This document shows positions 4,576-16,263 of a stretch of DNA of 39,911 bases, in pieces. The stretch is taken from assembly GCA_019747795.1 (NCBI GenBank), contig JAIEQK010000330.1:1-39911 (forward strand). The letters are read 5' to 3'. Position 1 is the first letter of the stretch, and each line of letters opens with the position of its first letter. Origin of the DNA: Gammaproteobacteria bacterium (GTDB taxonomy: Bacteria; Pseudomonadota; Gammaproteobacteria; Ga0077536). The position numbers and the translations under genes are program-made. The notes below the pieces were generated by a model that saw only the letters and a program-made list of their open reading frames with translations, was not told where the DNA came from and ran no database searches.

Positions 4576-6186
4576 TCAGACGAGCTTGAACTGGCCGACA
4601 CCCGCCTGCAGGGTCCGGCACAGCGCCTCGAGCTCGCGGGTCGCGTTGCCGACCGCCTGGCTCTCGGTAGCCGTGCGATCCGCGCCCTGCTGGATGCGCT
4701 GCAGGGTGCGCTCGACCTCGGCGATCACCTGGCTCTGCTCGCGGGCCGCGAGCGCGATCTCGCCATTCATCTCGCGGGCGTTGCCAACCGCCAGGTCGAT
4801 GGCGACGAGGGCGTCACCCGCGACCTGCGCGGCGTTCACGGTCTGCTCGGCGCGGGTGCGGCCGGCGTCCATGGCGTCGGCCACGCGCCGGATGGCGGCC
4901 TGCAGGCGCTCGATCATGGTGTTGATTTCGGAGGTCGAGTCGCCGGTGCGCTGGGCGAGCGTGCGAACCTCGTCCGCCACCACCGCGAAACCGCGTCCCT
5001 GTTCTCCGGCCCGCGCTGCCTCGATGGCGGCGTTCAAGGCCAGCAGATTGGTCTGTTCGGAGATGTCTCGAATAACCTGCAGCACCTGGCCGATGTCGCC
5101 GCTCGAGCGCTGCAGTTCGCTGACCGCGTCGGCCGAGTCGCGAATGTCGGTGGACAGGTCGGAAATGGTGCCGATGACCTGGGTGATCAGGCCCCGTCCG
5201 TCCGCCACGCGGCGCTGCGAGTCGTGGGTGGCATCGACCGCGGTGTCGGTGTTGTGCGCCATGCTCTGGGCGCTGCTCGCCAGTTCGGTCAGGGCCGAGG
5301 CCACGGCCTCGGTCTCGGCGAGTTGCGCGCTCATGTTCTGATTGGCCCGCGCTGAACTGGACTGCACCAGGCTGGTGGCGCTGGCGATCTGAGTGCTGGC
5401 GCCGGCCACCTTGCCCATCAACATGCTCAGCACGCCGACGAACTCGTTGAAGCCGCGCGCGATGGCCCCGATCTCGTCCTGCCTCGAAGCGTCGAGGCGC
5501 ACGGTGAGGTCACCGCCCCCCTTGCCGAGCGCGCTGAAGTGGAAGGCGATCTCCTGGAGTGGCAGGACGATGCCGACGTGCGCCCGATAGCCGATGAATA
5601 CGCACAGCAGCAGGCCCATGCCCAGCGCCGTGGCGATGCCGGTGTTGACCCGCGCGCTCAGCGCGAAGATGTCCTTGACCATGCCCTCGACCGCGGCGTC
5701 ACCGGTTTCCTCGAGCTGCACGAAGTCGGTGAGCAGGATTTGGGTCGCGTCGTGGTAGGCCTGTTCCGTAACTGGCGATACGCCGCTGGTGCCGCGCAGT
5801 TCGGCGAGCAATGCGTCGCGTGTGGCGGCGTAGCGTCGCACTTCGTCCCGTGCCCGCGCCAGGCTTGCCGCGGGCAACAAGGTGTCACCGTCCAGCACGC
5901 GCGTCAGGGCCTGCTCGGCGAACTCATGGGAAGCTTCGTAGCGTTCGAGCGCGGCCACCGAACCGCCGTCGCGGATCGCCGCCTGCAAGGCGAGCATTTC
6001 GCCCTGCACGCCAATCTGAGATTCCATCGCACCGTCAGCGGTGTTCCAGGCGGGGCCGGTCACCCGCTCGAGCATGTGCTCGAGCCCCAGCACCCCGTAG
6101 ACCCCGGCGCCGCCGGCGGCGCACAGTGCGAGCAGCAGCAGCAGGTTGAGAGAGGTGAGGCGGAAACCGATGGAATTCACGTTCAT
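4576..6186 (-). CDS. Methyl-accepting chemotaxis protein
   Basis: A 536-residue chemoreceptor with standard architecture. Transmembrane segment 1 lies near residues 11-32, a periplasmic helical sensor of about 150 residues follows, transmembrane segment 2 is near 182-200, a HAMP linker spans roughly 203-255 ([20 protein letters not shown]), and a long cytoplasmic coiled coil follows. The signalling tip is unmistakable at 374-413 ([21 protein letters not shown], then [12 protein letters not shown]). Such proteins bind CheW and CheA and are methylated on glutamates of the coiled coil. No C-terminal CheR-binding pentapeptide is present; the protein ends GVGQFKLV. The ligand is unknown and the sensor is a plain helical bundle. 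No che genes lie nearby, so this is a stand-alone receptor. Confidence 0.95.
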
Positions 6187-6301: not shown

Positions 6302-6673
6302 TCAGCCGCGCCGCAGAGCGGGGAGATCGGTCTCGTGGTCTTCCATGATCATGAAGCGGATCGAGGACTTCTCGAACAGCTTCTCCTCGTCCGCGCCGAT
6401 GATGGCGGCGGTCTCGGGATCGGTCAGGTAGGCCATGCCTTGCTGGAAATCGGCCTCGTCGTCGAACCAGATCTCGGTCAGCACGTCGTAGGGCGGTTCT
6501 GCGTCGGCGCCGTACACCGCGTTGCCGTAGGGCCGGATGAAGTGCCGCACATAGCGCTTGAGGTTCGGTACCTTGGAGGCGCCGAGCGGGGCATGGTGGT
6601 TCTCGTAGTACGCGATGAAGTCCTCCATGCTCATGCCACGCTTGCGCTTGATCATGACCATCACCTTGAACAT
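6302..6673 (-). CDS. EthD-domain protein
   Basis: A 123-residue protein that starts MFKVMVMIKRKRGMSMEDF, followed by YYENHHAPLG and a central acidic segment. The opening beta strand on methionine/valine, the xYYExxHAPL phrase and the later LTEIWFDDEADF segment are typical of the EthD family of small dimeric alpha/beta-barrel proteins. GGGGAGAG upstream of the ATG at 6673 serves as ribosome binding site. Members include accessory proteins for ether degradation and polyketide-type enzymes, so a specific role cannot be assigned. It is the last minus-strand gene before the hairpin at 6270-6296 and lies 75 bases after the phosphatidyltransferase gene, so it may be the tail of that transcription unit. 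Confidence 0.85.
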   Translation of the reverse strand: MFKVMVMIKRKRGMSMEDFIAYYENHHAPLGASKVPNLKRYVRHFIRPYGNAVYGADAEPPYDVLTEIWFDDEADFQQGMAYLTDPETAAIIGADEEKLFEKSSIRFMIMEDHETDLPALRRG

Positions 6674-6748: not shown

Positions 6749-7336
6749 TCAGCGTGCCCCGCGCCGCAGTCGCCAGAGGCCACCGACATTGCTGCGCGGG
6801 CGGGAGAGCAGCAGGGTGATGAGAATCTCCTCCAGCGCGGCGAGCAGCGCGAGCCCGGCGGCGATGCGCAGCGGCCAGCCGCGGCCGGTGAAGAGCGCGG
6901 TCAGGAGCGCCGCGGCGGTCGTTGCGACCGCGGCCTTGGTGGCCCAGGTGTGATAAGCGGTCAGGCAGCGGAAGCGCAGCCAGCCGACGGCGGCCGGCAG
7001 GCTGAAACTCGCGACCAGCGCGCCGAAGGCGAGCCACTCCTGCGCCACCAGTCGCGGCCACAGCAGGGCGACGCCAAGCGCGATGGCGCAGTAAGCGGCG
7101 CCGTCCGCCCACGAGTCGAGCCACGCGCCGAAGGGCGTGGTGCCACCGCTCCAGCGCGCCACGGTGCCGTCGATGAAGTCGCTCAGGAAAGCCGCGGCCA
7201 GCATCACCAGGAACACGTCGCGCCAGCCGGCCAGCGCCGCCAGCACCATGGCCGGCGCGGCGAGCGCGAGGCGAAACAGCGTCAGGCAGTTGGCCGCCGT
7301 CCAGCGCCGCGGATGGCGGTGGACGCCGCGCGTCAC
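6749..7336 (-). CDS. CDP-alcohol phosphatidyltransferase
   Basis: A 195-residue integral membrane enzyme that transfers a phosphatidyl-type group from a CDP-activated lipid to an alcohol. The family signature is complete: D56-G57-x2-A60-R61-x8-G70-x3-D74-x3-D78, inside LSDFIDGTVARWSGG and FGAWLDSWADG. Several hydrophobic helices surround it. The GTG at 7336 was chosen because it overlaps the TGA of the upstream gene (GTGA, 7333-7336), a common translational-coupling arrangement; the longer frame upstream is antisense noise. The acceptor alcohol is not deducible. Its neighbours upstream are an endonuclease/exonuclease/phosphatase enzyme and a CarS-like CTP transferase, so the three probably act in one membrane-lipid pathway. 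Confidence 0.9.
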   Translation of the reverse strand: MTRGVHRHPRRWTAANCLTLFRLALAAPAMVLAALAGWRDVFLVMLAAAFLSDFIDGTVARWSGGTTPFGAWLDSWADGAAYCAIALGVALLWPRLVAQEWLAFGALVASFSLPAAVGWLRFRCLTAYHTWATKAAVATTAAALLTALFTGRGWPLRIAAGLALLAALEEILITLLLSRPRSNVGGLWRLRRGAR

Positions 7337-8082
7337 AGCTCGAACCAGGCCTGCAGCGGCGCGTGATCGGAAAGCGTCGCCCAGGGCGGGCCGGCCAGGC
7401 GTCGCGCGGCGGTCGGCCGCAGGCCGCGACAGTAGATGCGGTCCATGGGAAAGAGCGGCGCCCACGACGGGAAACTCCGCGCGTGGCGACCGTGCAGCGC
7501 GCGGAACACTTCGCGCAGGCCCAGCGCGCTGTTGAAGCCGCGCTCGGCGCGGCCCCACCAGTCGTTGAAGTCACCCGCCACCACCAGCGCCTCGCCGTGC
7601 GGAATGCGCGCCTCGATGTGTTCGCACAGCCGACGGATCTGCGGCCGGCGCTCGGCGGCGAGGAAGCCGAAATGGATGCACACCAGGTGCAGGCGAGTGC
7701 CGCCCGGCGGTTCGATCACGCCGTGCAGCAGACTGCGGCTGGCGGCGAAGGGATAGGGGGAGACGTCGATGTTCTCCCAGGTGAGGAGCGGGTAGCGGCT
7801 CAGGATCGCGTTGCCGTGGTGGCCGTGGTCGTAGAGCGCGTTGCGACCGTAGGCGTAGTGCGGCCATAGCGTGTCGGCCAGGAACTCGAACTGCGAAGCG
7901 TCCGGCCAGTCGGCCACCCGCTCGGCATGGCGCTGATGTTCGCCCTGGGCCTCCTGCAGGAACACCACGTCGGCGTCGGCCAGCGCCAGCGCGTCGCGCA
8001 TGCGCGGCAGCACGAAGCTGCGCCGTCCGTCGCCGCTGAAGCCCTTGTGCATGTTGTAGGTGAGGATGCTGAACGCGGCCAT
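7333..8082 (-). CDS. Endonuclease/exonuclease/phosphatase (EEP) family enzyme, YbhP-like
   Basis: A 249-residue protein covering one complete EEP domain. Metal-binding and catalytic residues are in place: N10 in TYNMHKG, E44 in FLQEAQG, D171 and N173 in GDFNDW, D214 in MDRIY, and D239/H240 in LSDHAPL. The superfamily includes nucleases and phosphodiesterases or phosphatases acting on phospholipids. There is no signal peptide, so it acts on the cytoplasmic side. Its stop overlaps the start of the phosphatidyltransferase gene, and it starts six bases after the stop of the CarS-like gene. That context favours a lipid phosphate or phosphodiester substrate over DNA. This is an inference from gene order. 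Confidence 0.9.
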   Translation of the reverse strand: MAAFSILTYNMHKGFSGDGRRSFVLPRMRDALALADADVVFLQEAQGEHQRHAERVADWPDASQFEFLADTLWPHYAYGRNALYDHGHHGNAILSRYPLLTWENIDVSPYPFAASRSLLHGVIEPPGGTRLHLVCIHFGFLAAERRPQIRRLCEHIEARIPHGEALVVAGDFNDWWGRAERGFNSALGLREVFRALHGRHARSFPSWAPLFPMDRIYCRGLRPTAARRLAGPPWATLSDHAPLQAWFEL

Positions 8083-8088
8083 GGTCGT

Positions 8089-8568
8089 TCACCAGGGACG
8101 AGGGCGCAGGCGCAGACGGTAGAGGAGCGGCGAGGCGAGCCGCACCGCGAGCACGAAGCCGAGCACGCCGAGCAGCGCTTCGCCGGCGCTCAAGCCGAGG
8201 TCCTCGCGCAGGCACCAGGCCGGCAACAGCGCTTCGGGCAGGCTGTCCAGCCGCGGCGCGCGCGCGCCGGCCGGCAGCTGCAGCCGGCGCTTGACGAAAC
8301 TCGCCGCCAGGTCGCCAAGCATCGCGAGCGCACCGACCTGGGCGCCGAGCGTCCAGGCCAGGCCGAGCGCCGGCGCGGCCAGCGCGCAGGCCAGCGTCGC
8401 GGCCGCGAGGCCCCGCCAGGTCTTGGAACGGCCGAACAGCGGCGCCTCGTCGCGCAGCCTGAGCCCGCCGTCTATCGGTTGCTGCCACAGGTCGCCGCAC
8501 AGGTGGCTCGCGGCCACCGGCGCCGAGTTGGCGAGGGTCAGGAGGACCAGCAGTTGCAGCACGGCCAT
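8089..8568 (-). CDS. CarS-like CDP-lipid synthase (CTP transferase)
   Basis: A 159-residue membrane protein. The phrases NSAPVAASHL near the start, PIDGGLRLRDEAPLFGRSKTWRG, then GDLAASFVKRRL and GARAPRLDSLPEALL follow the order of conserved blocks in the CDP-archaeol synthase (CarS, DUF46) family, which transfers CMP from CTP to a lipid phosphate. That family is best known from archaea, but bacterial members exist. Here the gene is followed by an EEP enzyme and a CDP-alcohol phosphatidyltransferase, which would use a CDP-lipid product. The lipid substrate is unknown; a bacterial diacyl or isoprenoid lipid phosphate are both possible. It lies 56 bases after the DUF1854 gene on the same strand. 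Confidence 0.8.
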   Translation of the reverse strand: MAVLQLLVLLTLANSAPVAASHLCGDLWQQPIDGGLRLRDEAPLFGRSKTWRGLAAATLACALAAPALGLAWTLGAQVGALAMLGDLAASFVKRRLQLPAGARAPRLDSLPEALLPAWCLREDLGLSAGEALLGVLGFVLAVRLASPLLYRLRLRPRPW

Positions 8569-8624: not shown

Positions 8625-9095
8625 CTACATGAAGCGCGCGAGGATGCGCCGCGAGGTCGCGTCCAGCTTGGCGAGATCCGCGACTTCGAAGTGCAGGCCG
8701 TGGCTGTTGGTGACCAGGAGCCGGCCTTGGCCGAGGCGGCGGATGTCCTCCTCGGCTTTCAGAATGAGTTCGGTGCGGCCGCGGTCGGTGCGCACCGTCC
8801 AGGTCGTGGGCGTGGCGAACGCGGTGCAGGACTCGATGGCCTCGATGCGCGGCACGAACTCACGCTGGCGGATGTGCCTCGCGAGGAGTTCGCGGGTCGG
8901 CTCAGGCAGGTCTGCGAGACGTGGAATGTGCAGCACCTCGTGGCCGTCGTTGGCCACCAGGCCGATGAACTCTTCCGGCGCGCCCAGGGGAAAGGCGCGC
9001 ACCGGCACCACCCCCTCGAAGGTCCGGCCGTCGGCCAGGCGCAGTTGCAGACGGCCGCGCGCGTCCTCGTGCAAGGTGAAGTCCGCGTCGCTCAT
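8625..9095 (-). CDS. DUF1854 family protein of the cyanophycin-associated type
   Basis: A 156-residue cytoplasmic protein with no signal peptide or membrane span. It begins FTLHEDARGRLQLRLADGRTFEGVVPVRAFPLGAPEEFIGLV and contains REFVPRIEAIESCTAFATPTTWTVRTDRG, which I recognise as the DUF1854 pattern. Members are often found next to cyanophycin genes, but their activity is unknown. Its ATG (9093-9095) overlaps the TGA of the ABC transporter gene (9092-9094) by three bases, so the two proteins are probably made together. The cyanophycin synthetase genes lie just beyond the transporter, divergently oriented. Role in polymer turnover or export is inferred only from this context. Confidence 0.85.
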   Translation of the reverse strand: MSDADFTLHEDARGRLQLRLADGRTFEGVVPVRAFPLGAPEEFIGLVANDGHEVLHIPRLADLPEPTRELLARHIRQREFVPRIEAIESCTAFATPTTWTVRTDRGRTELILKAEEDIRRLGQGRLLVTNSHGLHFEVADLAKLDATSRRILARFM

Positions 9096-11326
9096 GCGTC
9101 GTCCTCGCCCTGGTTGCGTGCCTGCGCTTCGTAGAGCCGCGCGTAGGCGCCGTTCTTCTCGATGAGTTCGTCATGGTTGCCGATCTCGACGATGCGGCCG
9201 CGCTCCAGCACCACCAGCCGGTCGGCCTTGCGCAGGGTCGAGAGCCGATGCGCGATGGCGATGGTGGTGCGGCCGCGCACCAGGTTTTCGAGCGCCTTCT
9301 GGATCTCCTTCTCGGTCTCGGTGTCGACCGAGGAGGTGGCCTCGTCGAGCAGCAGGATGCGCGGGTCGATCAGGAGCGCGCGGGCGATGGACAGGCGCTG
9401 ACGCTCGCCGCCCGAGAGCTGCTGGCCGCGTTCGCCGACCAGCGAGTCGTAGCCCTGCGGCAGCCGCAGGATGAAGTCATGGGCGTGCGCCGCGCGCGCC
9501 GCGGCGATGATCTCCGCGCGCGTCGCGTTGGGTTTGCCGTAGGCGATGTTGTCCGCCACGGTGCCGAAGAACATGTAGGGCTCCTGCAGCACGAGACCTA
9601 TGTTCTGGCGAAAGGCGGGGATGGACAGCTGCCGGATGTCCACGCCGTCCAGCAGGATCGCGCCCTCGGCGACGTCGTAGAAGCGGCACATGAGGTTGAC
9701 CAGCGTGCTCTTGCCCGCGCCGCTCTGGCCGACCAGGCCGATCATCTCGCCCGGCTGGATGTCGAGCGTGATGTCGCGCACCACCGAGCGGCTGCCGTAG
9801 CGAAAGCCGACGTTGCGCAGCTCGATGTGACCGCGCACCTGCGGCAGCGGCGTCGGGTTGGCGGGTTCCGGCACGCTGGAGACGTGGTCGAGGATGTCGA
9901 AGATGCGCTTGGCGGCGGCGGCCGCCTTCTGCGTCACCGAGACGATGCGGCTCATGGAATCGAGCCGGGTGTAGAAGCGTCCGATATAGGCCAGGAAGGC
10001 CGTCAGCACGCCGACCGTGATCTCGTGCTGCGACACCTGGTAGATGCCGAAGGCCCACACCACGAGCAGCCCGATCTCGGTCAGCAGCGTGACGGTCGGC
10101 GTGAACAGGCCCCAGATGCGGTTCAGCCGGTCGTTCTGCTCGAGGTTGTAGCGGTTCGCGGCGAAGAAGCGCTGCCCTTCGCGTTCCTCCTGCGCGAAGG
10201 CCTTCACCACGCGGATGCCGGGAATGGTGTCGGACAGCACGTTGGTGACCTCGGACCACACGCGGGTCAGGCGCTCGAAGCCGGTGCGGAGCTTCTCGCG
10301 CACGATGTGGATGAGCCACGCGATGACCGGCAGCGGGATCAAGGTCGCGAGCGCGAGCCACGGATTGATGCTGAACAGGATGGCCGCGGTCATCAGCATC
10401 ACCAGCACGTCGGTCACGAAGTCGAGCGCGTGCAGCGACAGGAACACGCAGATGCGATCGGACTCCGAGCCCAGCCGGCTAATGAGATCGCCCGTGCGCT
10501 TGCCGCCGAAGTATTCGAGCGAGAGGCTCAACAGGTGGTTGAAGGTGGTGGTGCGCAGATCCGCGCCGATGCGCTCGGAGACCAGCGCGAGCACGAAGGT
10601 CCGCGCCCAGCCCAGCACCCACGCGACCAGCGCGGCGCCGAGCAGGCCGCAGAGGTAGAGCATCACACGGTGCTGGTCGATGGGCGTGCCGTTCTGGAAC
10701 GGGATCAGGATCTCGTCCATCAGCGGCATGGTCAGGTAGGGCGGGACCAGGGTCGCGAAGGTCGAGGCCAGCGTGCAGACGAGGCCGATGGAGAGCTGCA
10801 GTCGATAGGGCCGCGCGAAGCGCCACAGGCGGAAAAGGGTCCAGGTCGAGGGCGGCGTGTGCAGCTGCGCCGCGCATACCTGGCACTCCTCCTGGCTCGG
10901 GTCGAGCGGCGTGGCGCACACCGGGCAGTGCTCGATGCTCTCGCTCGCGGGCTCGCCGCCGGCGGCCAGGCGCTCGAACTCGGCTACGAAGCGCTTGGCG
11001 CCCAGGTCTTCGGCCAGGGTGAAGCGCAGCTGCCCGACCCGCTCGCCGGCGCGCAGCAGCTCGAGCGTGCCGACGCCACCATGCTCGCCATGGTTCAGCA
11101 AAAGTTCAGTGCTGAGCTTCCAGTCTTCGACCCCGCCGTCCTCGGACAGGTGCAGCACACGCGCATCGGTGAGGACGGCGAGACCGCGGGCATAGAGGAG
11201 ATCCGCGGTGAGGTCCGTCTCGAACCAGGCGCGTACCGTCTCCACGGGCGCGATCTGGGCGGCGGCTGGGGCCTGCCATCGCACTGGCAGAGCGGGTACA
11301 AGCGAAAATTGGGAACGGGCAGTCAT
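9092..11326 (-). CDS. ABC exporter with N-terminal zinc-ribbon extension, cyanophycin-associated
   Basis: A 744-residue half-transporter with fused membrane and ATPase domains. Residues 1-130 form an unusual soluble domain. It is followed by a zinc ribbon (C134, C137, C148, C151: HCPVC then CQVC), a six-helix exporter domain at about 165-460, and a nucleotide-binding domain with Walker A GQSGAGKST (533-541), signature LSGGE (637-641), Walker B ILLLDEA (657-663) and the H-loop histidine 693. It probably works as a homodimer. The start codon has only a weak GGGGA upstream. The DUF1854 gene overlaps its stop. Both lie divergent to two cyanophycin synthetase genes, so a link to cyanophycin is likely, but what it moves is unknown. 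Lipid or peptide export are both compatible with the fold. Confidence 0.9.
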   Translation of the reverse strand: MTARSQFSLVPALPVRWQAPAAAQIAPVETVRAWFETDLTADLLYARGLAVLTDARVLHLSEDGGVEDWKLSTELLLNHGEHGGVGTLELLRAGERVGQLRFTLAEDLGAKRFVAEFERLAAGGEPASESIEHCPVCATPLDPSQEECQVCAAQLHTPPSTWTLFRLWRFARPYRLQLSIGLVCTLASTFATLVPPYLTMPLMDEILIPFQNGTPIDQHRVMLYLCGLLGAALVAWVLGWARTFVLALVSERIGADLRTTTFNHLLSLSLEYFGGKRTGDLISRLGSESDRICVFLSLHALDFVTDVLVMLMTAAILFSINPWLALATLIPLPVIAWLIHIVREKLRTGFERLTRVWSEVTNVLSDTIPGIRVVKAFAQEEREGQRFFAANRYNLEQNDRLNRIWGLFTPTVTLLTEIGLLVVWAFGIYQVSQHEITVGVLTAFLAYIGRFYTRLDSMSRIVSVTQKAAAAAKRIFDILDHVSSVPEPANPTPLPQVRGHIELRNVGFRYGSRSVVRDITLDIQPGEMIGLVGQSGAGKSTLVNLMCRFYDVAEGAILLDGVDIRQLSIPAFRQNIGLVLQEPYMFFGTVADNIAYGKPNATRAEIIAAARAAHAHDFILRLPQGYDSLVGERGQQLSGGERQRLSIARALLIDPRILLLDEATSSVDTETEKEIQKALENLVRGRTTIAIAHRLSTLRKADRLVVLERGRIVEIGNHDELIEKNGAYARLYEAQARNQGEDDA

Positions 11327-11338
11327 TACTTATATTAT
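11309..11338 (+). promoter_or_regulatory. Putative sigma-70-type promoter for the cyanophycin synthetase genes
   Basis: TTGGGA at 11309-11314 and TATTAT at 11333-11338 are 18 bp apart, in a small AT-rich patch inside a GC-rich region. TATATT at 11331 with a 16-bp gap is an alternative -10. The start of the divergent ABC gene (11326) overlaps the element, so regulators bound here could affect both directions. This gives an untranslated leader of about 100 bases before the ATG at 11445. Assignment is by pattern only. Confidence 0.4.
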
Positions 11339-11444
11339 CCCCGGATCGACTACAGGATGGTGTCGCTGCCACCTGGGCAAGGTGCCCACGGGCGCTGCGG
11401 CGCCGAGGCGTGTCCGTACGCGCCGCGACCCACAGCCGTCAGTG

Positions 11445-13643
11445 ATGACCCAATACGACATTCGTCTCCTCGACCTGATTTTTCTGCGAGGACCCAATCG
11501 CTGGTCCTATCGACCGACCCTCGAGGCCCTGGTCGACATCGGCGCCCTCGAGGAACATCCGTCGAATGTCCTGCCCGGCTTCGTCGAGCGCCTGGTCGCC
11601 TGGTTACCGGGCCTGCGCAAGCACGAGTGCAGCTACGAAGAGCCGGGTGGCTTCGTGCGGCGGCTCGAGGAAGGCACCTGGGTCGGCCACATTCTTGAAC
11701 ACGTCACGCTCGAACTGCAGACCCAGGCCGGCCGGCCGGCCGGCTTCGGTCGTGCGCGCAGCACCTCCACCACCGGCATCTACCACGTGGTGGTGCGCAC
11801 CACCCAGGAAGACCTGACCAAGACCTGCCTGCTGCGGGCGCGGGACCTGATCCTGGCCGCGATCCATGGCCAGGCCTTCGATGTCGCCGGCACCCTGCGT
11901 GAACTCCGCGTGCTGGCCGATCGCAAAGGTTTTGGCCCGAGCACCGCCTGCATCGTCGATGCCGCGGTCGCCGCGCGCGTGCCGGTACTACCGCTCGGCC
12001 AGGGCAACCTGGCGATCCTCGGCCACGGCACGCACCAGCGCCGCATCTGGACGGCCGAGACCGACCGGACCTCGGCCATCGCCGAATCCATCGCCGCCGA
12101 CAAGGCGCTCGCCAAGCAGCTGCTCGCGCCCTGCGGCATCCCAGTGCCGGAAGGCTCGGAGGTGCGCAACGTCGAAGCCGCGATCGAAGCTGCCGAGGAC
12201 ATCGGCTACCCGGTGACGGTGAAACCCTGCGAGGCGAATCGCGGCGAGGGCGTGTTCCTGGACCTGCGTGACGCCGAGCAGGTGCGCGCGGCCTTCAAAC
12301 CGGCCTATGACGCGTCGGCATCGACCGTGCTGGTCGAGAAGCACATCGAAGGTGACGAGCATCGCCTGCTGGTGGTGGGTGACAAGGTCGTCGCCGCGAC
12401 CCGCGCCGTGCCGGTCGAACTCGTCGGCGATGGCGTGCGCAGCGTGCAGCATCTGCTCGCCTACACCCTGGCGGCGCTCGCCGAGCATGGCGACCCCGCC
12501 GTGGTGCCGTTCACGGTGGAGGACTTCGAGGACTTTCCCACCGTGCGCCTCGCGCTGGCGCGGCAGGGCCTGGATTTCGCCGCGGTGCCCGCGGCCGGCC
12601 AGGTGGTGACGCTGCCACGCCACGCGAAGATCGGCGAGGACGTGCTCGCCCTGGTCCATCCCGCCACCGCCGCGCTCGCGACGCTCGCGGCGCGCGCCGT
12701 GGGGCTCGACATCGCGGGCATCGACATCGTCGCGCGCGACATCGGCCAGCCGCTCGCGGCCCAGGGCGGCGCGCTCATCGAGGTCAATGCCGGCCCCGCG
12801 CTGCCGACCCACCTGCCCCAGGGCGAACATGGCGCCCATCCCGCCGGCCGAGCCATCATCGACCACCTCTTTCCGGGCGACGAGAAAGGCCGGATTCCGC
12901 TGGTCGGCATCGGCGGCAGCGCGGACACCACGCTGGAAGCACGCCTGGTGGGTTACTTGCTGCACTTGAACGGCGTGTCGGTCGGTGTGGCCTGCGGCAC
13001 CGGTCTCTACCTCGGCGATCGCCAGGTCGATCACAACGACGGCGCGCACTGGGCGGCCGGCCAGCGCCTGCTGATCAACCGCACGCTCAAGGCCGCCGTG
13101 ATCCAGACCACGGCCGAGAGTTTGCTGCGCGAAGGTCTACCCTACGACCGCTGCCAGGTGGGACTGGTGACGTCGCTGGACAGCGGACACACGCTCGCGC
13201 GTTTCGGCGTTCAGGACCAGGAACAGCTGACCAAGTTGCTGCGCACCCATGTTGACGTGGTGCTGGCGCAGGGCGTGGCGGTGCTGAACGCCGACGACCC
13301 GGGGGTACTGGCGCTCGCCGAGTACAGCGATGGCGAAGTGCTGCTCTACAGCGGCCGGCCGCAGGGCGAGGCGCTGGCCGAAGCGCGCGCCGCCGGGCGC
13401 CGCGCGGTCTATCGCGACCGGGACGAACTGGTGTTCGCCCACGGGGATGCGAGCGAGCGCCTGCCGCTGCCTTCGGGTTTCGACCTGCCGGCCGCGCTGC
13501 CTGCCGCCGCCTGCGCCTGGGCGCTGGGCGTGCCGCCCGAACTCATCGTGAGCGGCATCGTGGGCTTCCCGGCCGCACACGAGTGTGCGGAACCGGGCTC
13601 GGACCCGCGCAGCGCGGCGGAGCGGCTCGCCGCCCGCCTGTGA
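11445..13643 (+). CDS. cphA': Second cyanophycin synthetase (CphA'-type) with degenerate ligase P-loop
   Basis: A 732-residue protein; ATG at 11445 chosen because MTQYDIRLLDLIFLRGPNRWS matches the family's N-terminus. An N-terminal domain (about 1-160) is followed by an ATP-grasp domain with the nucleotide lysine K260 in VKPCEANRGEG and the block IEVNAGPALPTHLP at 445-458. The Mur-ligase-like domain is degenerate: where the neighbouring CphA has GTNGKTT, this protein reads GIGGSADTT (488-496), lacking the P-loop lysine. The lid region with PGRFN and DYGHNP is absent, and the protein is about 130 residues shorter. The later block LLREGLPYDRCQVGLV still aligns, so the fold is kept. It probably performs only the ATP-grasp half-reaction or partners CphA. 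The gap to cphA is 34 bases. Confidence 0.9.
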   Translation: MTQYDIRLLDLIFLRGPNRWSYRPTLEALVDIGALEEHPSNVLPGFVERLVAWLPGLRKHECSYEEPGGFVRRLEEGTWVGHILEHVTLELQTQAGRPAGFGRARSTSTTGIYHVVVRTTQEDLTKTCLLRARDLILAAIHGQAFDVAGTLRELRVLADRKGFGPSTACIVDAAVAARVPVLPLGQGNLAILGHGTHQRRIWTAETDRTSAIAESIAADKALAKQLLAPCGIPVPEGSEVRNVEAAIEAAEDIGYPVTVKPCEANRGEGVFLDLRDAEQVRAAFKPAYDASASTVLVEKHIEGDEHRLLVVGDKVVAATRAVPVELVGDGVRSVQHLLAYTLAALAEHGDPAVVPFTVEDFEDFPTVRLALARQGLDFAAVPAAGQVVTLPRHAKIGEDVLALVHPATAALATLAARAVGLDIAGIDIVARDIGQPLAAQGGALIEVNAGPALPTHLPQGEHGAHPAGRAIIDHLFPGDEKGRIPLVGIGGSADTTLEARLVGYLLHLNGVSVGVACGTGLYLGDRQVDHNDGAHWAAGQRLLINRTLKAAVIQTTAESLLREGLPYDRCQVGLVTSLDSGHTLARFGVQDQEQLTKLLRTHVDVVLAQGVAVLNADDPGVLALAEYSDGEVLLYSGRPQGEALAEARAAGRRAVYRDRDELVFAHGDASERLPLPSGFDLPAALPAAACAWALGVPPELIVSGIVGFPAAHECAEPGSDPRSAAERLAARL

Positions 13644-13677
13644 CACTCGACAATCCAGCAAGGTCCAAACACCGCCG

Positions 13678-16263
13678 ATGGAAGTAGCCCGCGTACGTGC
13701 CCTGCGAGGGCCCAACCTGTGGAGTCGCCGCACCTGCATCGAGGCGGTCGTGCACTGCACCGAGCAGGAACGGGACCTGTCCCTGCAGCCGGAATTCCTG
13801 AAACGTCTGCGCGCGCTCTACCCGCAACTGCAGGTGCTGCCGGTGCCGGACGGCGGCGTGCCGCGCTCCGCCGCCCACGTACTCGAGATTGCGACGCTCA
13901 GCCTGCAGGCCGACGCCGGCTGTCCGGTCAGCTTCAGCCGCTGCGGCGCGACCCCCGAGGCTGGCGTGTTCCAGGTGGTGGTCGAGTACAGCGAGGAATC
14001 GGTCGGGCGCGCCGCGCTCGAGATCGCCGAACGTCTGGTGGTCGCCACGCTGACCGGCCAGGCCTTCGATGCCGAGGCCGAGATCGCCGGCCTGCGCGAG
14101 TTGGACGAGGAAGAGCGTCTCGGTCCCTCCACCGGCGCCATCGTTGCCGCGGCAGTCGAGCGCGGCATCCCCTACCGCCGCCTCACGACCGGCAGCCTGG
14201 TGCAGTTCGGCTGGGGCAGCCGCCAGCGCCGCATCCAGGCCGCGGAGATGGATCGCACCAGCGCCATCGCGCAGTCCATCGCCCAGGACAAGCAGCTCAC
14301 CAAGCAACTCCTGAAGGCCGCCGGCGTGCCGGTGCCCGACGGGCGCGAGGTGCACAGCGTGGAGGAGGCGTGGGCCGCGGCCTGCGCGCTTGGTCTGCCG
14401 GTGGTGGTCAAGCCGCGCGACGGCAACCACGGCCGCGGCGTGACCGTGAACGTCGAGACCAAGCCCCATCTCGAGGCCGCCTACCGCGCGGCGCTCGAGG
14501 CCGGCACGGTAGTGATCGTCGAGCGCTACATCCCCGGCCACGACTACCGCTTCCTGGTGGTCGGCGACAAGCTCATCGCCGCCGCGCGGCGTGACCCGCC
14601 CTTCGTCATCGGCGACGGCGTGCACACCGTGCGCGCGCTGGTCGAGGAGGTGAACCGCGATCCGCGTCGCGGTGAAGGCCATGCCACCTCGCTGACCAAG
14701 ATTCGCCTGGACGACATCGCCCAGACGCTGCTCGGCCTGCAGGGCCTCACGCCCGACGCCGTGCCGCCCAAGGGGCTGCGCGTCGTGCTGCGCAACAACG
14801 CCAATCTCTCCACCGGCGGCACAGCCACCGACGTCACCGACGAAGTGCATCCCGATCTCGCCGCGCGGGTGGTCGCCGCGGCGCAGATGGTGGGACTCGA
14901 CATCTGCGGCGTGGACGTGGTCTGCCAGTCCGTGCTGCGGCCGCTGGAGGAACAGAACGGCGGCATCGTCGAAGTGAACGCCGCGCCGGGACTCCGGATG
15001 CACTTGACGCCGTCCTATGGCACCGGGCGGCGGGTCGGTGAGGCGATCATCAACGACATGTTCCCGCCAGGTGAGGACGCGCGCATTCCGGTCATCGCCG
15101 TGACCGGCACCAACGGCAAGACCACCACCGTGCGTCTCACGACCCACATCCTGCGCACCGCGGGTCTCAGGGTCGGCATGACGCTCACCGACGGCGTCTA
15201 CGTCGACGACGTGCAGATCGACAGCGGCGACTGCAGCGGGCCGCGCAGCGCGCGCTCGGTGCTGATGCACCCGGACGTCGATGCCGCGGTGCTGGAGACC
15301 GCGCGCGGCGGCATCCTGCGCGAGGGCCTGGCGTTCGATCGCTGCCAGGTGGCGGTGGTGACCAACATCGGCGCGGGCGATCATCTCGGCCTCAACTACA
15401 TCACCACTGTCGAGGATCTCGCGGTCCTGAAGCGGGTCATCGTCCAGAACGTCGCGCCCGGCGGCTTCGCGGTGCTGAACGCCGACGATCCGGTCTCGGC
15501 GCGCATGGGCGCGGCCTGCCCCGGCGCCATCATCTATTTCTCGCGCAATCCGGCCAACGCCGTCAGCGTCACCCATCGCGCCCAGGGGCGCCGCGTGGTG
15601 CTGGTGGACGGTGACGCCATCAGCTGCGTCGAGGGTCATGAACTGTGGCGCATGCCGCTGGCCGACATTCCGCTGACCCTCGGCGGGCGCGTCGGCTTCC
15701 AGGTGGAGAACGTGCTGGGCGCGGTCGCCGCGGCCTGGGGTGCCGGCATCGACTGGCGCGCCATCGAGGCCGGCCTGCGCAGCTTCGTCCCGGGACTTGA
15801 CGCCACGCCCGGCCGCTTCAACCTGCTGGACTACCGCGGCGCCACGGTAATCGCCGACTACGGTCACAATCCTGACGCGATGGTGGCGCTGGTGCAGGCC
15901 GTCAGCGCCTCGCCCGCGCGTCGTCGCATGGTGGTGATCAGCGGCGCCGGCGACAGGCGCGACGAAGACATCCGCGATCAGACCCGCGTGCTGGGCGACG
16001 CCTTCGACCGCGTGCTGCTCTACCAGGATGCCTGCCAGCGCGGCCGCGAGGATGGCGAGGTGCTGGCCCTGCTGCGCGAGGGGCTCACGAATGCGTCCCG
16101 CACCCGCGAGGTGGAGGAGATCCGTGGCGAGTTCGTCGCCATCGATCGTGCGCTGGCTCTGCTCGAGCCCGGAGACCTGTGCCTGGTGCTGATCGACCAG
16201 GTGGAGGAGGCGCTGGCCTACCTGCGGCGCTGCTGCGCGGCGAGTGCGGCCCAGGTGGCCTGA
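13678..16263 (+). CDS. cphA: Cyanophycin synthetase
   Basis: An 861-residue enzyme that builds the aspartate/arginine storage polymer cyanophycin from ATP and both amino acids. The N-terminal domain is followed by an ATP-grasp domain (K245 in VKPRDGNHGRG; IVEVNAAPGLRMHL later), which adds aspartate to the backbone. A complete Mur-ligase-like domain follows, with Walker A GTNGKTT at 477-483, ILREGLAFDRCQVAVVTNI, and the C-terminal blocks PGRFN (711-715) and ADYGHNPDAM; this part attaches arginine. The ATG at 13678 gives the family-standard start MEVARVRALRGPNLWS. Length is normal for CphA. No cyanophycinase or isoaspartyl dipeptidase gene is in the window, so degradation genes must lie elsewhere or be missing. 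The gene converges on the histidine kinase gene with only 19 bases between stops. Confidence 0.97.
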   Translation: MEVARVRALRGPNLWSRRTCIEAVVHCTEQERDLSLQPEFLKRLRALYPQLQVLPVPDGGVPRSAAHVLEIATLSLQADAGCPVSFSRCGATPEAGVFQVVVEYSEESVGRAALEIAERLVVATLTGQAFDAEAEIAGLRELDEEERLGPSTGAIVAAAVERGIPYRRLTTGSLVQFGWGSRQRRIQAAEMDRTSAIAQSIAQDKQLTKQLLKAAGVPVPDGREVHSVEEAWAAACALGLPVVVKPRDGNHGRGVTVNVETKPHLEAAYRAALEAGTVVIVERYIPGHDYRFLVVGDKLIAAARRDPPFVIGDGVHTVRALVEEVNRDPRRGEGHATSLTKIRLDDIAQTLLGLQGLTPDAVPPKGLRVVLRNNANLSTGGTATDVTDEVHPDLAARVVAAAQMVGLDICGVDVVCQSVLRPLEEQNGGIVEVNAAPGLRMHLTPSYGTGRRVGEAIINDMFPPGEDARIPVIAVTGTNGKTTTVRLTTHILRTAGLRVGMTLTDGVYVDDVQIDSGDCSGPRSARSVLMHPDVDAAVLETARGGILREGLAFDRCQVAVVTNIGAGDHLGLNYITTVEDLAVLKRVIVQNVAPGGFAVLNADDPVSARMGAACPGAIIYFSRNPANAVSVTHRAQGRRVVLVDGDAISCVEGHELWRMPLADIPLTLGGRVGFQVENVLGAVAAAWGAGIDWRAIEAGLRSFVPGLDATPGRFNLLDYRGATVIADYGHNPDAMVALVQAVSASPARRRMVVISGAGDRRDEDIRDQTRVLGDAFDRVLLYQDACQRGREDGEVLALLREGLTNASRTREVEEIRGEFVAIDRALALLEPGDLCLVLIDQVEEALAYLRRCCAASAAQVA

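Follow-up and report, generated by a model that had tools for sequence, protein, structure and literature searches.

A CarS-like CTP transferase encoded with a phosphoesterase and a phosphatidyltransferase in a gammaproteobacterium

Gene organization

The 39,911-nucleotide stretch of gammaproteobacterial DNA considered here (the window; contig C296 of genome G000, which measures 5.9 Mb and is 99% complete) carries a trio of consecutive genes on its minus strand. Their products are a CarS-like CTP transferase, a YbhP-like enzyme of the endonuclease/exonuclease/phosphatase family (EEP) and a CDP-alcohol phosphatidyltransferase (CAPT):

8089-8568, minus strand: CarS-like membrane CTP transferase, predicted CDP-lipid synthase, 159 amino acids (PF01864; fold match to 5GUF)
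7333-8082, minus strand: YbhP-like EEP-family phosphoesterase, 249 amino acids (PF03372; 47% identity to YbhP)
6749-7336, minus strand: CAPT, 195 amino acids if it starts at the GTG overlapping the end of the EEP gene (PF01066)
7333-7336, minus strand: GTGA stop/start overlap of the EEP and CAPT genes (from the sequence)

The trio was first pointed out in a sequence-only reading; the open reading frames lie where that reading placed them and the overlap is real. The EEP gene ends in GAG CTG TGA, and GTG ACG at 7336 is a possible CAPT start. Because the CAPT frame is also open further upstream (269 amino acids if counted from 7558), this start is likely rather than proven. A gap of 6 bp separates the CarS and EEP genes. 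Identity to the congener G019 is 71% for CarS, 81% for EEP and 61% for CAPT, and the differences at codon positions 1/2/3 (0.25/0.19/0.46, 0.16/0.12/0.37 and 0.30/0.25/0.48, respectively) are highest at the third position, as expected of coding DNA. No promoter or terminator was found on the trio strand, and between 6200 and 11500 no terminator-like sites were found, where shuffled sequence averaged 1.6.

The three proteins

The CarS-like protein scores over the cut-off of Pfam family PF01864 (CarS-like; E 3.2e-10, 40.7 bits against 22) and under that of the CdsA family, CTP_transf_1 PF01148 (15.3 bits against 24). A profile of 77 CarS relatives finds in the PDB, at E<=1, a single distinct sequence, the archaeal CarS 5GUF (E 3.3e-21). 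The AlphaFold model (pLDDT 92) also matches 5GUF only at E<=0.001 (E 5.5e-6, TM 0.72, 33% identity), the next match having an E of 1.4. By sequence profile and predicted fold, the 8089-8568 protein groups with CarS and not with CdsA, in agreement with the CarS-type assignment of the sequence-only reading; that it might instead group with ordinary CdsA enzymes was looked at, and a CdsA origin is ruled out by the family scores and the fold. It lies under the cut-off of the NCBIfam equivalog for archaeal CarS (NF003114; 64.1 bits against 148).

Invariant across the 77 relatives are D33, G46, K49, G53, G85, D86, S90, K93, R94, R95, D108, E112 and F138. CarS of Aeropyrum pernix (ApCarS, 5GUF) has LDQLD in place of the LDQxPE found in most of the bacterial family, whose E112 is invariant. 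At this post-LDQ site an acidic residue is missing from three Thermoplasmata CarS sequences, so that the correspondence between the Asp of ApCarS and the bacterial Glu is not secure. After the conserved Asp (D108) the window protein has Ser and not Gln; position 109 is Q in 62 of the 77 sequences, T in 7, S in 4, H in 2, V in 1 and E in 1. Ser, Thr or Val thus stand there in 12 sequences, comprising nine from co-directional trios (all those aligned), one from a CarS-EEP locus ending at a contig end (L030) and two from Methylobacter loci lacking EEP or CAPT neighbours (L027, L038), whereas Gln is retained at L100 and L134, where EEP is divergent. A single origin of the change was considered. 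The 12 sequences form one group in a quick CarS tree (SH-aLRT 86) and need two changes in a more careful one, for which the bootstrap had yet to converge; this leaves one or two origins.

The EEP protein is a member of PF03372 (Exo_endo_phos; E 1.5e-19, 71 bits against a cut-off of 24.5), and its identity to Escherichia coli YbhP extends across 248 positions. Residues N10, E44, H137, D171, N173, D214, D239 and H240 are invariant in an alignment of 11 sequences that includes YbhP; we take them to be the catalytic set, and on this alignment the earlier proposal of an EEP enzyme with its key residues in place appears correct.

CAPT falls in PF01066 (CDP-OH_P_transf; E 2.9e-16, 60.7 bits against 22). 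The signature D53xxD56G57xxA60R61...G70xxxD74xxxD78, complete as had been proposed, is invariant in 14 homologues and follows what we take to be the family motif, DxxDGxxAR(x8)GxxxDxxxD. Its best equivalog is archaetidylinositol phosphate synthase (NF040950; 46.4 bits against a cut-off of 180); the scores are 26.0 bits against the pgsA equivalog (cut-off 109.1) and 27.3 bits against that of pssA (cut-off 107). An attempt to read the acceptor from solved relatives was given up, PssA-, PgsA- and PIPS-type structures all matching at 30-37 bits.

Lipid synthesis genes elsewhere in the genome

The window genome encodes a separate CdsA (PF01148, 168 bits against a cut-off of 24; NF008635, 140.9 bits and under the cut-off of 385), a PgsA (TIGR00560, 182 bits against 109) and a PssA (TIGR00473, 121 bits against 107), together with three further PF01066 members whose type is unclear. 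With CdsA, PgsA and PssA already encoded elsewhere, the trio would be an additional branch. For PcrB-type geranylgeranylglyceryl phosphate (GGGP) synthase the genome gave no match over the cut-off, the lone weak match (18.3 bits against 23.9) being TrpA. Nor was PgpA (PF04608) found in this genome; it is present in 294 of the 369 genomes of the class sample described below.

Distribution and partners of CarS

Among 36 genomes of the same family, five have a CarS match. It is intact in G000, G019, G016 and G017, all four of which keep the order CarS-EEP-CAPT, and weak in G025 (E 6.8e-4, two internal stops). The survey of gene order suggested by the sequence-only reading thus finds it kept here, and also in more distant gammaproteobacteria. 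A scan of contigs gave 38 CarS loci, including three archaeal ones and one cut within CarS (L056), and eight of these carry the full trio. Four (L022, L023, L040 and L055) correspond to G019, G374, G016 and G017 and are not independent of those genomes; the others come from a metagenome-assembled genome (L026), Methylomicrobium (L029, L033) and Methylicorpusculum (L036). At the level of sequence, the family memberships of the three proteins, their conserved residues and the conserved association of their genes can be regarded as established.

CarS is most often partnered by a different enzyme, a YaeI/LpxG-like metallophosphoesterase (MP). It lies near CarS in 20 of the 38 contig-scan loci, adjoining it in 18. 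In the two Lamprocystis loci (L050, L051) it is 2.6-2.8 kb off, as if something had been inserted between. The partnership was followed in an even sample of the class, 369 gammaproteobacterial genomes, with thresholds of E<=1e-8 for CarS, E<=1e-40 for EEP and E<=1e-50 for MP; the p values for this sample take no account of kinship. CarS was found in 64 genomes, YbhP-like EEP in 46 and MP in 53. Two of the CarS matches, in G355 (L143) and G290 (L148), have one in-frame stop each (TAA and TGA, respectively) and are perhaps decaying genes. CarS and MP occur together in 46 genomes, CarS only in 18, MP only in 7 and neither in 298 (p 3e-36), so that 46 of 64 CarS genomes have MP against 7 of the 305 others. 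EEP stands beside CarS in 4 of the 18 CarS genomes without MP and in none of the 46 with it (p 0.005).

CarS neighbourhoods were read in 61 of the 64 CarS genomes (the window and 60 fetched loci). MP is a neighbour of CarS or fused to it in 37 (convergent in 33, divergent in 1, fused in 3); EEP is on the same strand in 2 and divergent in 2, and CAPT on the same strand in 4 and divergent in 3. The fusions are open frames of 475-503 amino acids with CarS first (L154:4957-6381(-), L156:5927-7435(+) and L158:6026-7468(-)). By table positions, two unfetched genomes have CarS and MP within one open frame of 530 amino acids (G168) and as convergent neighbours (G324). The model of a fused protein has two confident domains joined by a linker of pLDDT <50 (pTM 0.66; the placement of the domains is not interpreted), and Foldseek returns 5GUF for one part and Mre11-type metallophosphoesterases for the other. 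MP scores 82.9 bits against YaeI (cut-off 188) and 68.6 bits against LpxG (cut-off 350), related to both and under both cut-offs; a search by sequence found no solved relatives of it. Co-occurrence, gene adjacency and fusion all tie the CarS family to a phosphoesterase, and the trio is one form of this larger partnership in gammaproteobacteria. The EEP form recurs within it. In G043 and G145, on separate parts of the CarS tree, EEP and CAPT lie beside CarS in a divergent arrangement, and the EEP neighbourhood needs four changes on that tree, two of them forced by well-supported branches. Around partnerless CarS genes (10 of 19 such loci, plus L110), a scan of 20 neighbouring open reading frames found no known family of other lipid phosphatase; it gave one NUDIX domain (L116) and three frames that match nothing.

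The sequence-only reading had regarded CarS as mainly archaeal and the trio as a possible cassette for an unusual phospholipid head group. A lipid head-group module still holds, the neighbours found elsewhere fitting phospholipid head-group chemistry. The framing was too narrow, given a CarS family in 64 of 369 gammaproteobacterial genomes in which the trio is a minority arrangement and MP the commonest partner.

EEP also has partners where CarS is not its neighbour. Another 40 EEP loci from the class were read (L167-L206): a CAPT of the trio subfamily (E <1e-50) adjoins EEP in 9, ClsB in 11 and neither in 20. EEP-CAPT pairs occur in 13 of the 44 EEP genomes read (2 of the 46 were not fetched), four of them linked to CarS. 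CarS is present in 7 of these 13 genomes against 2 of the 31 other EEP genomes (p 0.001), and in three of the seven (G063, G101 and G208) the pair is on a different contig from CarS. That YbhP-like EEP stands beside either ClsB or a CAPT of the trio subfamily suggests one lipid-related role for YbhP.

Flanking genes

The trio is flanked by the following genes:

4576-6186: methyl-accepting chemotaxis protein, downstream of the trio
6302-6673: EthD-domain protein, downstream of the trio
8625-9095, minus strand: DUF1854 protein, upstream of the trio, over the cut-off of an NCBI cyanophycin-associated family
9092-11326, minus strand: ABC transporter, upstream of the trio, over the cut-off of an NCBI cyanophycin-associated family
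11208-13643 and 13585-16263: two cyanophycin synthetase genes, divergent

The EthD-domain protein has an 86% identical counterpart in the congener G019 (L007) and was not seen in the other surveyed loci. The cyanophycin synthetase at 11208-13643 covers only family positions 1-719 of 871, with no Mur ligase match; the second gene is full length.

The trio might belong with the upstream transporter and DUF1854 gene and modify membrane lipids around cyanophycin granules or their transport. In the window and in G019 it lies on the same strand, 56 bp after DUF1854, in the region where no terminator-like sites were found. This association is, however, limited to one genus in the genomes searched. 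DUF1854 occurs in 12 of the 36 same-family genomes, jointly with CarS only in G000 and G019 and in ten without CarS, one of these being G020, the third genome of the genus, which has no CarS match; G016 and G017 carry the trio without DUF1854. Across the loci fetched for the surveys (the window, L022-L059, L099-L158, L167-L206 and E. coli L090), DUF1854 turns up in just two, the window and L022 (the G019 locus). A cyanophycin function of the trio was accordingly set aside as very improbable.

A proposed second phospholipid branch

What would the three enzymes do together? The reading that we prefer, held with about as much confidence as doubt, is that the trio forms a dedicated second phospholipid branch, which activates a lipid, attaches a head group and hydrolyses a phosphate ester. 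With CTP as co-substrate, the CarS-like membrane enzyme would convert a lipid phosphate into a CDP-lipid, its starting material most likely being ordinary phosphatidic acid. CAPT would then swap CMP for an alcohol head group that probably carries a phosphate of its own (e.g., glycerol-3-phosphate or an inositol phosphate). EEP would hydrolyse a phosphate ester, in the simplest case the additional phosphate that the new head group brings along. Elsewhere among CarS-bearing gammaproteobacteria, the linked phosphoesterase is mostly the unrelated MP, in a few genomes within the same polypeptide. Our inferences concern the substrates, which way the flux runs and what the phosphoesterase does.

Several observations weigh against this scheme. 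CAPT is under every NCBIfam head-group equivalog cut-off, and a CAPT of the trio subfamily is near only 7 of the 61 CarS loci; none of the three partners (MP, EEP or CAPT) is present at 19 of them, some at contig ends. CarS and EEP occur together in 9 of the 369 genomes, which is not above expectation (p 0.68). Removal of a phosphate by EEP is the weakest step and leaves room for a phosphodiesterase or recycling role, because of three results. EEP adjoins ClsB in 11 of the 40 further loci, and ClsB is a phospholipase D (PLD)-type synthase that leaves no phosphate to remove. With a profile of the 11 EEP sequences, two solved structures match at E<=1e-5; both are sphingomyelinase-type enzymes, and these are phosphodiesterases. 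Finally, the lack of PgpA in the window genome suggested that EEP replaces it, which is not borne out in the class: PgpA is present in 54 of 64 CarS genomes and in 240 of the 305 without CarS (p 0.39; presence was scored by eye in the list of 294 genomes with a match), and with frequencies this alike such a replacement is not claimed. As to the first step, archaeal CarS preferred the archaeal substrate and failed to complement an E. coli cdsA mutant, according to sections of PMC9385802.

The main rival is lipid recycling, in which the phosphoesterase (EEP or MP) cleaves a phosphodiester or a nucleotide-diphosphate lipid and CarS re-activates the resulting lipid phosphate, so that the cassette remodels existing phospholipids. 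It would account for the many CarS loci that have a phosphoesterase and no linked CAPT, for the direct CarS-MP fusions and for the kinship of EEP with sphingomyelinases. It would also suit the scores of MP with YaeI and LpxG, the latter being described in part of PMC4807358 as cleaving a nucleotide-diphosphate lipid; MP, however, is under the cut-offs of both. A CDP-lipid pyrophosphatase next to a CDP-lipid synthase would be futile, and the CAPT in the trio points to synthesis. We regard recycling as possible but rather doubtful.

Could the three genes adjoin by chance and form no functional unit? The full trio is a minority arrangement, many CarS loci have no partner and genome-wide co-occurrence of CarS and EEP is not seen, as noted above. 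The GTGA overlap and the tight spacing argue otherwise. So do the return of the three genes, co-directional or divergent, in separate parts of the CarS tree and the recurrence of EEP-CAPT pairs away from CarS, and chance seems improbable. Synthesis of archaeal-type ether or isoprenoid lipids in a bacterium, with CarS making CDP-archaeol, is suggested by the family and fold of CarS and by the best family match of CAPT, archaetidylinositol phosphate synthase. That match is far under its cut-off, as is CarS under its archaeal equivalog, and no PcrB-type GGGP synthase was found in the window genome (digeranylgeranylglyceryl phosphate synthase was not searched for). We therefore consider an archaeal ether-lipid pathway most unlikely.

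A further idea goes beyond this. The bacterial CarS family as a whole would supply a second route to CDP-lipids, running alongside CdsA and coupled to a phosphoesterase of its own (EEP or MP, sometimes fused). In the trio lineages, CarS with its changed residue 109 would activate a lipid phosphate other than diacylglycerol phosphate, and the product would be a phospholipid class undescribed in these bacteria. We offer this as speculation, and think it unlikely to hold in full.

If the second-branch reading is true, a CarS family spread across gammaproteobacteria and tied to a phosphoesterase would represent a second CDP-lipid route in bacteria, beside the ordinary CdsA of the window genome. 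It gives a short list of genes for testing (carS, the fused carS-phosphoesterase, the ybhP-like EEP gene and the CAPT gene), and the trio provides context for YbhP. In open-licence PMC literature, no title was found on the bacterial CarS family or on its phosphoesterase fusion; PF01864 appeared only in archaeal work, the other results for PF01864, DUF46 or "CarS-like" appearing unrelated by title. In the same literature, no paper was found joining cyanophycin with DUF1854, CDP-archaeol synthase with Marinobacter, or PGP phosphatase with "endonuclease exonuclease phosphatase".

Comparison with known systems

CarS and CdsA are described in sections of PMC9385802 as separate subfamilies, with CarS treated as the archaeal counterpart of CdsA and one side of the "lipid divide". 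In Cloacimonetes metagenome-assembled genomes holding other archaeal lipid genes, CarS was not detected, according to part of PMC7852524. The nearest characterized structure to the window protein is that of A. pernix CarS (5GUF), which belongs to the same PF01864 family, is the sole significant PDB match whether profile or fold is compared, and aligns with it at the DxG...KT, GDxxxSFxKRR and LD motifs. The window protein differs in scoring under the archaeal equivalog cut-off, in having P-E after LD(Q) where ApCarS has D and Ser for Gln after the Asp, and in belonging to a genome where PcrB was not found. With CdsA (PF01148) it presumably shares the kind of reaction, CTP plus lipid phosphate, and a superfamily kinship reported in sections of PMC9385802. 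It differs from CdsA in its score, under the cut-off, in its length of about 159 amino acids and in coexisting with a separate CdsA.

For EEP the closest parallel is the E. coli ybhP-clsB-ybhN operon. In both cases a YbhP-type gene overlaps the gene of a phospholipid synthase (ybhP overlaps clsB in K-12); the window synthase, however, is a CAPT and not a PLD-type ClsB, and CarS is added. A plasmid carrying ybhP-clsB-ybhN restored cardiolipin in Salmonella, and in the available parts of that report ybhP is mentioned only within the clsB operon (PMC9241728). Within the gammaproteobacteria, the CarS-MP loci likewise tie the CarS family to a phosphoesterase, in L111 and L125 with a CAPT as well. 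They differ from the trio in using an unrelated phosphoesterase family, mostly in a convergent arrangement (33 of 61) and in three cases fused to CarS itself.

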